Below, piece by piece: positions 35,292 to 39,675 of a stretch of 52,356 bases of DNA. The stretch lies in NCBI GenBank assembly GCA_021789895.1, contig JAJYIU010000027.1, forward strand, positions 1 through 52,356, in the 5' to 3' direction. This DNA comes from Acidobacteriota bacterium (lineage in GTDB: Bacteria; Acidobacteriota; Terriglobia; Terriglobales; SCQP01). The position numbers and the translations under genes are program-made. The notes beneath the pieces are model-generated. The model was given only the letters and a program-made list of their open reading frames with translations, did no database searches and was not told the origin of the DNA. Positions within the stretch are counted from its first letter, which is position 1; the number at the start of each line of letters is the position of its first letter.

Positions 35292-36902
35292 GTGCCGGCC
35301 TCATCACGCGAACCCGAAACCAGCCTGCTGCTCCACAACGGCCGCGTACTACTCCGCGGTGGGGCCGCCGCCGAAGCCGTCGCCATCCATCGCGGCCGCT
35401 TTCTCGCTGTTGGCAGTGTGGCGGCGCTGCGCCGACGCCTCGCCCGCGCCGCCTCCAACTGGCAGGAATTCGACCTGCGCCGGCGTTGGCTGGTGCCCGG
35501 CTTCGTGGACGCCCACATGCATCCGCTGTTCGGCGCCGTTTTCCAGGAGGCCGGCATTGCGCTGCGCGACCGCGCGGGCAATTTCCTCGATCGTGCCGCC
35601 ACCGTGGCCGCCGCCGTGCGCCGCGCCTGCGCCGCCGAACGCGGGGAAAGCGACTGGCTGACCGGGTATGGCTGGAGCCCGGCGCTGGCGCAAGCCCCGG
35701 AGTTCAACCGCCGCCTGCTCGACCGGGTTTGTCCTGAGCGTCCGGTCTTCCTGCTGAGCCTGGATGCGCATTTCGCCCTGGTCAACACCCGCGGCTGGCG
35801 CCGCCTGGCGCCGCTGCCTTTTCCGGCCGGCAGCGGCCAGGTGGTGCGCGATTCCCGCGGTGAGCCCACCGGCCTGCTGCTCGAAACGCCGCAATTCATC
35901 GCCGCCTTGAAGGTCCTGGGCCAGATGCGTTACGAGCGCATTGCGCGCGCCTTCGAGGCCTTTCAGGAACAAGCCCTGGCCGCCGGCTTGACCGCGATTG
36001 CCGATGTGATTGCCGACCTCGGAGTGCTGCGGCATTATCTGCGCCTCTATCGCCAGCGGCGGCTGAAGTTGCGGCTCTTCGCCAGCCCCTATGGCCCGCT
36101 GCAGACGGAAGCGGCCATGCGCCGGCTTTTGCGCCGCGCCGGCGCCGACGCCAACCGCCTGGGCCTGGGCCCGGAAAAATACCTGCTCGATGGCACCCCC
36201 GGCAACCATAATGCCGCCTGGTTCCAGGCCTATGCGGATGATCCCTCCACTTCCGGCTTTCTCACTCTCTCTCCGGATGAGCTGCAGGCCGTGGTGGCGC
36301 GAGCGCGCCGCGCCGGCCGCGACCTGGCCTTGCATGCCGCCGGCGATCTGAGCGTGCATCTGGCGCTCGATGCGATCGAATACGCCCCCGGCCCGCGGCG
36401 CTCGCGGATTCGGATCGAGCATTTCGACAATCTCAACCCCGGCGACCGCGCCCGCTTGCCCCGCCTGGCGCGGCAGGGGCTGATGGCCAGCATTCAGCCC
36501 ACTCATTTTGCCGAGGTCTATTGCCGCGTAATTCGCCAGGTCATCGGCGCGGAGCGCATGCGGATGGAATATCCGCTCGCTTCGCTTTGGCGCGCGGGCA
36601 TTCCGGTGGCGCTGAATTCCGATTGGCCGGCGGCGATGACCTTCAAGCCGCTGGAAATCATGCAGGCGGCGCTCGATCATGGCCGCGAGCGTCTGAGCCC
36701 GCGCCAGGCGTTGGATGCCTACACCCGGCTCGGTGCCTACGCGCTGCGGCGGGAATCCATTTTGGGCGAGATCGCCCCGGGGTATCAGGCCGATGCGGTG
36801 CTGCTCTCAGGCAACCCGCTGGGCCGGCGCCCGGTGCGGCTGCAGGTGCTCGGCGCCATGATCGCCGGCACGCCGCAATTTGGCCCCTGGCGCCAGCGCT
36901 GA
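35292..36902 (+). CDS. Amidohydrolase family protein (YtcJ-like)
   Basis: This 536-residue metal-dependent hydrolase has FVDAHMHPLF with the HxH metal ligands, DLALHAAGDLSVHLALDAI, RIRIEHFDNL and the late ALNSDWPAAMTFKPLEIM segment, as in YtcJ-type amidohydrolases. The substrate is unknown. Its start lies 50 bp from the murB start, divergently oriented, so they may share a control region. Strong high-GC codon bias creates a long antisense reading frame that I do not consider real. Confidence 0.85.
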   Translation: MPASSREPETSLLLHNGRVLLRGGAAAEAVAIHRGRFLAVGSVAALRRRLARAASNWQEFDLRRRWLVPGFVDAHMHPLFGAVFQEAGIALRDRAGNFLDRAATVAAAVRRACAAERGESDWLTGYGWSPALAQAPEFNRRLLDRVCPERPVFLLSLDAHFALVNTRGWRRLAPLPFPAGSGQVVRDSRGEPTGLLLETPQFIAALKVLGQMRYERIARAFEAFQEQALAAGLTAIADVIADLGVLRHYLRLYRQRRLKLRLFASPYGPLQTEAAMRRLLRRAGADANRLGLGPEKYLLDGTPGNHNAAWFQAYADDPSTSGFLTLSPDELQAVVARARRAGRDLALHAAGDLSVHLALDAIEYAPGPRRSRIRIEHFDNLNPGDRARLPRLARQGLMASIQPTHFAEVYCRVIRQVIGAERMRMEYPLASLWRAGIPVALNSDWPAAMTFKPLEIMQAALDHGRERLSPRQALDAYTRLGAYALRRESILGEIAPGYQADAVLLSGNPLGRRPVRLQVLGAMIAGTPQFGPWRQR

Positions 36903-37057
36903 AACCGGGCGTAGTCAGGCGTATCCTCAGCCCCGGCGCCGGGTTGCCTGGCGGCGTTGCCGCCGGGAACGCCGCCTGCGCCGCCGGAATCTAATTTAAG
37001 TTCATCTTGCTCGGGGGCGGACGGCATTCGGCTTTGCTTCCAGCGTCTGAACTTACT

Positions 37058-38017
37058 ATGGCACTGGCGCCAACTTCCAGCCTGGAACTCGCGCAGATGC
37101 CGGTTTTGCGCAGCCGCTTGCGCTTGTTGCCCACCCAGGTGGCATTTGCGGGCTGGACCCTGTGGTATGCCGCTTTATGCCTGGTGCATCCCGCCGGCGC
37201 CCCCTTTTGGCCCTGGCTGCCGTTGAACCTCGGGCTGCTGGGGTTGTTGCTGCCGCTCGGCTTCCATTTGCGCGCTCAACCCGCCGGCTCGGGCCGCGGG
37301 TCATTCTTTCTCTATTTTTTTCTCCAGCTCTTCCTGGTGCTGCCGCTGGTCTATGAAGAATCGGGCGCGTTTCGCCAGCACCTGGTCTCCGCCGTTCCGG
37401 TGGAGCACTGGCTTTCCGGCCTCGACCGCTCCATCTTCGGGCTGGTTTGGAGGCAGCGCCTGCCCCCGTTTCCCGGAGCTTGGAGCAGCTTCTGGGAAGC
37501 CGTTTACCTGTTCAACTATGTGCTGCTGTTCATTGGCTTGCTGCTGGCCGTCTGGCCGGCGCTGCAGCGGCGAAATGCCATCTCCGCCGTCAATCCGCCC
37601 GCGCGTGACCTGCTGCGGGCGGAAACTATCGTCGGCGCGATGCTGTCGGGGCTGATCGTTTGCTATTGCTTTTTCCCGCTGCTGCCGGGCATCACCCCGC
37701 GCCTGTTTTATCCCCAGTTGCGCCAGCCGGGGGATGGCTGGCTGCATAACCTGAACTGGTGGCTGCTGGCGCGGTTTTCCATTCCCTATGGCATCTTTCC
37801 CAGCGCCCATGTCGCCGGGCCGATGGCCCTGGGTTGCGCTTTGACCGCCCGCCGGCGGGTGGTGGGGATTTTCTTCCTGCTCGGCGGCGGGCTGATCGCC
37901 GCCGCCACCGTGCTCGGCGACTATCACTTCCTGGTGGATGCGGCCGCCGGCGTATTGATCGGAATCGTCGCCTGGGCCTGGGTCGAATGGCAGCTTGCGC
38001 CCGCCCGCGCGCTTTAG
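37058..38017 (+). CDS. PAP2-superfamily membrane phosphatase / inositolphosphoceramide synthase-like
   Basis: This 319-residue protein has about six to seven hydrophobic helices. The C-terminal motifs FPSAHVAGPMALGCAL and LGDYHFLVDAAAGVLIG match the PAP2 signature (PSxH and the later H-x3-D). Members dephosphorylate or transfer lipid phosphates in the membrane. ATG 37058 is taken; a TTG at 37007 is also possible. Neither start has a strong RBS. The substrate cannot be told. Confidence 0.8.
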   Translation: MALAPTSSLELAQMPVLRSRLRLLPTQVAFAGWTLWYAALCLVHPAGAPFWPWLPLNLGLLGLLLPLGFHLRAQPAGSGRGSFFLYFFLQLFLVLPLVYEESGAFRQHLVSAVPVEHWLSGLDRSIFGLVWRQRLPPFPGAWSSFWEAVYLFNYVLLFIGLLLAVWPALQRRNAISAVNPPARDLLRAETIVGAMLSGLIVCYCFFPLLPGITPRLFYPQLRQPGDGWLHNLNWWLLARFSIPYGIFPSAHVAGPMALGCALTARRRVVGIFFLLGGGLIAAATVLGDYHFLVDAAAGVLIGIVAWAWVEWQLAPARAL

Positions 38018-38547
38018 CGCTCTCCCGGCCGGGTCGGCTCCATCTCGAGCGCGTTATTGAAGCGGTTGAAATAGTTGAACAGGCCGATGACGGCGGTTAA
38101 TTCGACGATTTGCCCCTCGTCAAAATGCCGCCGCAGCCCGGCATCGAGCGCGTCGTCCATGGCCAGGGCGCCGCCGGTCATGCGCTCCGCCAGGCGCAGG
38201 CCCCACTTCACGGCTTCCTCAAAATTCGCTTGTTCGAACCCGGGCAGCGCCGCCAGCTCCGCGTCTGTCCATCCTAGCCGCCTTGCCAAGGCGGTATGCG
38301 AAGCCAGTCAATAATCGCAGTGGTTGATCTGCGAGACCCGCACCGCCAGCAATTCTTTCAGTTTGGGGGCGACGGTTCCGGTCTGCATCACGCAATCGAA
38401 ATGGGACAACATCGTGCGCAGCAGTTGCGGACGATGCGCCATCACGCGAAACATGTTGGGCACGTTGCCGCGCCGCTGGTACCAGTCGTCGTAAAGGCCC
38501 TTCAACTCCGCCGGGGCTTCCCGATACCCGATCCGGGTAATGCGCAT
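38014..38547 (-). CDS. AhpD-like (carboxymuconolactone decarboxylase fold) protein, candidate selenoprotein with CxxU
   Basis: An AhpD-type frame runs from ATG 38547 to TGA 38016-38014, interrupted only by TGA at 38310-38308. The TGA falls exactly in the redox motif: INHCDY-TGA-LASHT, i.e. C77-x-x-U80-x-x-x-H84 with upstream E65, the same E...CxxC...H pattern as AhpD. Both sides are in one frame and continue the family without gap (177 residues, normal length), so a frameshift is excluded. A hairpin fitting a bacterial SECIS follows. Selenoprotein AhpD-like proteins are known in other bacteria. The alternative is a Cys-to-stop nonsense mutation making two fragments. The enzyme would be a thiol/selenol peroxidase or disulfide reductase. 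It ends just before the PAP2 gene, tail to tail, overlapping by 4 nt. Confidence 0.75.
38271..38310 (-). promoter_or_regulatory. Candidate bacterial SECIS hairpin after the in-frame TGA
   Basis: On the minus strand, 13 nt after the TGA (38310-38308), CCGCCTT-GGC-AAGGCGG forms a perfect 7-bp stem (38294-38278) with a 3-nt loop. The loop begins 20 nt after the TGA and its first base is G. Published bSECIS rules ask for a loop about 16-37 nt downstream with a G in the first two loop positions, so both conditions are met. Confidence 0.65.
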
Positions 38548-38559
38548 GGGTTCTCCTTT

Positions 38560-39675
38560 TTACTCGTAAGCCAGCGCCGCAATCGGATCCTGGGTGGCGG
38601 CTTTATATGCGGGATAGCTGGCGCCGATCAGGCTGCCGGCGACGGCGATTGCGGCCGCGCGCCCCGCCCAGCCCCAGGTCAGCTCGATGGTCAGCGCGGG
38701 ATAGGCATGCCGCAGCACCGCGCCGATGATCCATGCCAGGCCCCAGCCCGCCAGGATGCCCAGCGCCGCCAGCGCCGCGCCTTCGCGCAGTATCGCCTGC
38801 ACGATGTAGGGCCGCGAGGCCCCGAGCGATTTCAAAATGCCGATTTCGCGCGTGCGTTCCAGAATGGTCGTGTACATCGAGAGGAAAATCACCAGAAAGC
38901 CGATGATGACGCCGATGCCGATCATGGAATGCTGAAACAGCGGCAGGCCGGGCATGTTGGCCGAGGTGAAGAGCGAGAGATATTGCTGCATCGGCTGGAT
39001 GGTATAGCCGGGTAGCAGTTTCTCCAGCCGGTCCACCATGGCCTGCGCCTGCTCCGGGTGCGCGAGCTTGAGATAGAACACCGCCGCCTTTTCCGGCGCG
39101 CCGACCAGGGAGTCCAACTCGGCAAGCGAGATGTAAATGCGCGACCCTTTGCCGTGCTCGTAAATGCCGCTGAGCTGAAAACGGTGGCCGAGCAGGGTCA
39201 GCCATTGCCCGGCTTGCAGGTGATGGGCGCGGGCGTAGATGTCGTCCACAATCACCTGGTCGGGACGGTGGAAGGGGCGGCCGTGGAGGAACTGAAAGCC
39301 GCCGCTGACCGCGTCGAAGCTGCCCAGCTCGATGCCGCCCACGGTGGATAGGGATTTGCCGTTGATCTGCATCGCCACCGGGGCCACCGCCGTCACCCCC
39401 GGCTGCTTTTTTAGCAGCGCGGCCAGCTTCAGCGGCATGGTGTTGCCGCCCAGCGCGAAAAACATCGAGGAGCTCGAAGGCCGGATGACGACATCGGCGC
39501 CCACGCCGGCCATGCGGGTGCGATTGTCGCGCACCATGCCGTTGGTCAAGCCGACGATCAACAGGATCAAGGCGACTTCCACCGCAATCGCAATGATGGC
39601 CACCAGGCTGCGCACCGGACGGCGGCGCAGGTTGGATGCCACCATCCGGTTCATCATGCCTTCAGTGATGCCCAT
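38560..39675 (-). CDS. ABC transporter permease, FtsX/MacB-like
   Basis: This 371-residue protein has an N-terminal membrane segment (about 22-44), a large periplasmic domain (about 50-250) of the MacB core type, and three C-terminal TM segments, with SMYTTILERTREIGILKSLG, the conserved FtsX-family coupling motif. The MGITEGMMNRMVASNLRRRP start suits the family. Its ATPase partner is not in the window. It overlaps by 14 nt with the lipoprotein-like gene upstream, so the two probably act together in lipid, lipoprotein or drug export. Confidence 0.88.
   Translation of the reverse strand: MGITEGMMNRMVASNLRRRPVRSLVAIIAIAVEVALILLIVGLTNGMVRDNRTRMAGVGADVVIRPSSSSMFFALGGNTMPLKLAALLKKQPGVTAVAPVAMQINGKSLSTVGGIELGSFDAVSGGFQFLHGRPFHRPDQVIVDDIYARAHHLQAGQWLTLLGHRFQLSGIYEHGKGSRIYISLAELDSLVGAPEKAAVFYLKLAHPEQAQAMVDRLEKLLPGYTIQPMQQYLSLFTSANMPGLPLFQHSMIGIGVIIGFLVIFLSMYTTILERTREIGILKSLGASRPYIVQAILREGAALAALGILAGWGLAWIIGAVLRHAYPALTIELTWGWAGRAAAIAVAGSLIGASYPAYKAATQDPIAALAYE

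Follow-up and report, generated by a model that had tools for sequence, protein, structure and literature searches.

Does the TGA in the middle of an AhpD-like reading frame of an Acidobacteriota contig break an ordinary CxxC gene into two pieces, or is it read as selenocysteine (Sec)? The question arose from a sequence-only reading of a 52,356-nucleotide stretch of DNA, referred to here as the window, which proposed a selenoprotein gene. Its boundaries were the same as those in Table 1; its strand, which that reading did not give, is minus. When TGA is translated as U, the minus strand yields a single frame of 177 codons, whose only internal TGA is codon 80. As proposed, this codon stands where CxxC has its second Cys, within the motif N-H-C-D-Y-U-L-A-S-H (CDYU, that is, CxxU). 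Both flanks are in phase and retain family similarity, again in line with the proposal, with 70% identity to homolog L022 over residues 1-177. The codon-position pattern, with the third position being the most variable, is alike upstream and downstream of the UGA.

Table 1. Positions of the predicted selenoprotein gene, its elements and neighbors in the window, and of selD elsewhere in the same genome.
Feature	Position	Strand	Remarks
Predicted AhpD-like (peroxidase-related, CMD superfamily) selenoprotein gene	38014..38547	-	177 aa including Sec80; ATG 38547-38545; stop TAA 38016-38014
UGA codon 80, predicted to be read as Sec	38308..38310	-	C77-D78-Y79-U80; next nucleotide C (UGAC); TCA on the plus strand
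Putative bSECIS hairpin	38278..38294	-	7-bp stem 38294-38288/38284-38278; GGC apical loop 38287-38285; within codons 85-90 (T-A-L-A-R-R)
Shine-Dalgarno-like AAGGAG	38553..38558	-	5 nt before the ATG; read from sequence
MacB/FtsX-like ABC permease gene, directly upstream	38560..39675	-	Pfam MacB_PCD and FtsX; 12 nt before the selenoprotein ATG
PAP2-superfamily phosphatase gene	37007..38017	+	Pfam PAP2_3; convergent, overlaps the last 4 nt of the selenoprotein gene; context only
selD (L018)	own genome C6:135309-136229	-	in-frame TGA at the active-site position

In a scan of the species genomes in GTDB, 80 homologous loci with 52-70% identity were obtained, all of them titled as Acidobacteria and kin. 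The sequence-only reading had suggested comparing homologs for Cys or Sec at position 80, and the outcome is unambiguous: the codon is TGA in 21 loci, TGC in 53 and TGT in six, and no other codon occurs. Within the window's own family an ortholog is present in 10 of 14 genomes, and all ten orthologs have the TGA form. In a phylum sample of 396 genomes, matches at E <= 1e-40 were obtained in 29 (the window's own included), about two thirds of which have TGA at this codon.

Downstream of the UGA lies a hairpin with the sequence CCGCCUU-GGC-AAGGCGG. Its stem begins 13 nt and its apical loop 20 nt after the UGA, and the loop starts with G. Published rules for bacterial SECIS (bSECIS) elements give a stem of 4-16 bp, a loop of 3-9 nt, a G in the first two loop positions and a spacing of 16-37 nt (PMC13188914). 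The agreement with these rules claimed by the sequence-only reading is borne out (7 bp, GGC loop, 20 nt), and the hairpin also covaries. Folded as a single sequence of 58 nt, the region is unremarkable (z = -1.6; 13 of 200 shuffles as good). All seven pairs are formed in each of the 22 TGA genes (the window gene included), compared to at most four of seven in all 59 Cys genes. Among 36 distinct TGA sequences, distant ones included, 99.6% of cells are paired in the true register versus 33-56% in slid controls, and double-sided (compensatory) changes are seen at six of the seven pairs. Double-change cells number 33, against a shuffled mean of 7.0, and none of 500 shuffles scored as high. The GGC loop is invariant in the TGA sequences compared. 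Codon choice within the hairpin is similarly constrained: Leu87 is TTG and Ala88 is GCA in all 22 Sec genes, although these codons are little used in the window (0.12 of its Leu and 0.11 of its Ala codons, respectively), whereas the Cys genes use seven different codons at position 87 and five at position 88. On this comparative test, which is far beyond chance, we take the hairpin to be real. A covariance-model search of the own genome produced no convincing match for a second gene with a similar SECIS (best other hit 17.1 bits, E 0.24).

The same genome contains all four components that the sequence-only reading had proposed to look for, namely selA, selB, selC (tRNA-Sec) and selD. The tRNA-Sec scores 66.8 bits, over the Rfam cut-off, and is called by ARAGORN as tRNA-SeC with anticodon tca; selB is over its cut-off, with the C-terminal part in the same frame; selA scores 511 bits and selD 357 bits. 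The selD gene has an in-frame TGA at its active site (AAG-U-AGKL), and its product is probably a selenoprotein itself. Co-occurrence follows the codon: selA is found in 21 of 21 genomes with the TGA form versus six of 19 with the Cys form (Fisher p about 2e-6, which is indicative because the genomes are related), and a clear tRNA-Sec (>57 bits) in 18 of 21 versus six of 19. No convincing tRNA-Sec was found in the draft assemblies of three TGA genomes (G004, G009 and G026); selA is present in all three.

These observations allow us to weigh other readings of the UGA. An ordinary CxxC gene split in two by a nonsense mutation, pseudogenization or a sequencing error would, if one genome alone were considered, appear as two adjoining fragments, and the source assembly (3.75 Mb, 95.5% complete) is a draft in 79 contigs. 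However, TGA occupies this codon in 21 other assemblies of the first search as well as in 19 loci from across the phylum, evolution is of the coding type on both sides of the UGA, and the covarying hairpin follows TGA forms only. A pseudogene or sequencing error is ruled out by the conserved TGA together with this hairpin, and we leave the broken-gene explanation practically no probability. Because some 40 other genes have the same TGA, it is now very unlikely that TGC or TGT is the true read at codon 80. UGA could also be decoded as some other amino acid, without Sec, through genome-wide reassignment or leaky readthrough. UGAC is a weak stop, and C follows the TGA in all 22 close Sec genes. 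Yet TGA terminates eight of the 16 long frames in the window and therefore looks like a normal stop, which led us to reject genome-wide reassignment; moreover, the TGA genes are accompanied by selA and a bSECIS-type hairpin, and the replacement at codon 80 is always Cys. Decoding without Sec is thus highly improbable. As far as comparative sequence data can tell, it is almost certain that this gene for an AhpD-fold redox protein has its UGA recoded as selenocysteine.

The predicted protein matches the Pfam CMD model (PF02627) over residues 40-104, a region spanning the Sec codon, with 60.4 bits (cut-off 23, E 1.8e-16), and TIGR00778 (ahpD_dom) with 60.5 bits, above the cut-off of 27.8. An AlphaFold model, in which Cys was placed at position 80, has a pLDDT of 93.6 and aligns over its full length, across 173-174 residues, with peroxidase-related proteins of Deinococcus and Silicibacter (Z 22.7 to 6k40, 22.5 to 2pfx and about 22 to 2oyo); identity in the structural alignments is 26-29%. 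The model also resembles the debrominase Bmp8 (6ohi, 6ohj; Z 20.2), the Pseudomonas aeruginosa PA0269/AhpD-like structures (2o4d, 2ijc, 7xw1; Z 19.2-19.6) and human Sestrin2 (Z about 15). A proton relay has been described for PA0269 and Mycobacterium tuberculosis AhpD, consisting in PA0269 of Glu36, Cys48, Tyr50, Cys51 and His55 (PMC3141380). All five positions are present in the window protein, with the same spacing, as Glu65, Cys77, Tyr79, Sec80 and His84; PA0269 differs in having Cys where the window protein has Sec and in its shorter chain. Judging by this model, the protein has an AhpD-like, peroxidase-related fold with Sec at the second Cys.

By analogy with AhpD, peroxide or disulfide reduction is the probable reaction of the Sec protein. 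SelB carrying Sec-tRNA-Sec would bind the hairpin downstream of the UGA and deliver Sec, so that a 177-aa enzyme instead of a 79-aa fragment would be made. Sec80 would replace the second Cys of CxxC within the AhpD-type proton relay, and its selenolate would attack a peroxide or a disulfide. A Se-S bond between Sec80 and Cys77 would then form, and a cellular thiol reductant would reset the enzyme. The reaction is uncertain, since the peroxidase activity of PA0269 is merely weak (PMC3141380) and related folds, such as that of Bmp8, carry out other redox chemistry.

A Sec enzyme with a different reaction, for example reductive dehalogenation or thioredoxin-like disulfide oxidoreduction without peroxidase activity, is possible but rather unlikely. 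Apart from the shared fold of Bmp8, this option draws on 43 Cys orthologs that lack the first Cys, which implies that some family members can do without a two-thiol cycle. Against it, structures annotated as peroxidase-related or AhpD have higher Z scores, but by a small margin, and no neighboring gene names a substrate. A different view would see the UGA mainly as a selenium-dependent switch, where at low selenium the 79-aa product or the loss of product matters and the permease operon is co-regulated. The selenoprotein gene lies 12 nt downstream of the MacB-like permease gene, and the two are probably on one transcript; Sec recoding is also generally incomplete (30-40% in a system cited in PMC4513850). 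Only the closest relative, L022 (78.7% identity), has retained the operon order, however, while the Sec codon is conserved far more widely, and it is in every case the catalytic Cys that is replaced, pointing to catalysis. We consider a primary role as a switch improbable. The permease gene was not seen beside the selenoprotein gene at the other loci compared, and a conserved MacB-like permease operon was rejected as a functional clue on the same grounds.

AhpD-like selenoproteins do exist elsewhere, as the sequence-only reading had stated: CxxU forms were reported in 2005 (Sargasso Sea) and 2008 (GOS), and a 2026 review places them under TIGR01926 and PF02627 (PMC13188914). The window protein shares with the TIGR01926-type selenoproteins the CxxU motif with Sec at the second Cys, the domain, and a bSECIS just past the UGA, but its score of 73.3 bits is below the TIGR01926 cut-off of 81.8. 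All 30 aligned family members match this model at E <= 0.001, which is an E-value threshold and not the curated cut-off. The best NCBIfam profile is NF053654 (E 3.2e-21), also named for a (seleno)protein (YciW-related), yet the window protein, at 75.9 bits, stays far under its cut-off of 310 and is not a member of that equivalog. The main texts of the literature searched contained no mention of AhpD-like selenoproteins tied to Acidobacteriota. Thus, what is new here is not the AhpD-like CxxU selenoprotein as such, but an Acidobacteriota subfamily that apparently has no name yet.

Relationships between Sec and Cys forms were analyzed in trees from which the columns of the motif and the hairpin had been left out. 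The Sec/Cys label changes twice in the close set and four times in the phylum-wide set, where the own CxxC paralog served as the outgroup; this outgroup has a very long branch, so that the root is not firm and the Sec-to-Cys polarity rests on nesting. Cys forms are nested inside Sec forms, and Sec-to-Cys losses are for that reason the simpler reading. From these sequences, Sec looks ancestral in the Acidobacteriota subfamily, with Cys having replaced it about three times. One clade of 43 Cys genes (for example L037, L042 and L050) has lost the first Cys, having mostly TPYC, and has kept the Cys at the Sec position; loss of the partner Cys suggests a changed catalytic cycle. Taken as a whole, it is somewhat more probable than its opposite that these AhpD-like selenoproteins form a subfamily spanning the Acidobacteriota and not yet described, that Sec is its ancestral state, that in most of the roughly three Cys replacements the Sec machinery and the hairpin were lost too, and that one Cys clade then lost the partner Cys.

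The AhpD-like Acidobacteriota selenoprotein adds no new mechanism. Its practical consequence is that standard gene callers stop at the UGA, and a catalytic enzyme is consequently missing from the annotation of many Acidobacteriota genomes. Sec and Cys orthologs, with or without the hairpin, form a clean natural series that should be useful for studying why bacteria keep or drop selenocysteine in one and the same enzyme.

Several minor observations were made along the way. Codon 79 (38311-38313, minus strand), immediately before the UGA, is the Tyr codon TAT in 22 of 22 close Sec genes, and Tyr codons elsewhere in these genes comprise 24 TAT versus 44 TAC; as a context signal TAT was rejected, because phylum-wide it precedes the UGA in just 10 of 19 cases. 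An amidohydrolase gene and the PAP2 gene (together 35292-38017, plus strand) adjoin the selenoprotein gene in L022, L026 and L074 as well, a local synteny without an evident functional link. Finally, genomes of the window's family contain further AhpD-like paralogs with 26-40% identity and one in-frame TGA each (for example, G436:C19:174187-174681, G443:C31:12453-12953 and G440:C55:47118-47576), and it may be common in this family for one genome to encode several AhpD-type selenoproteins.
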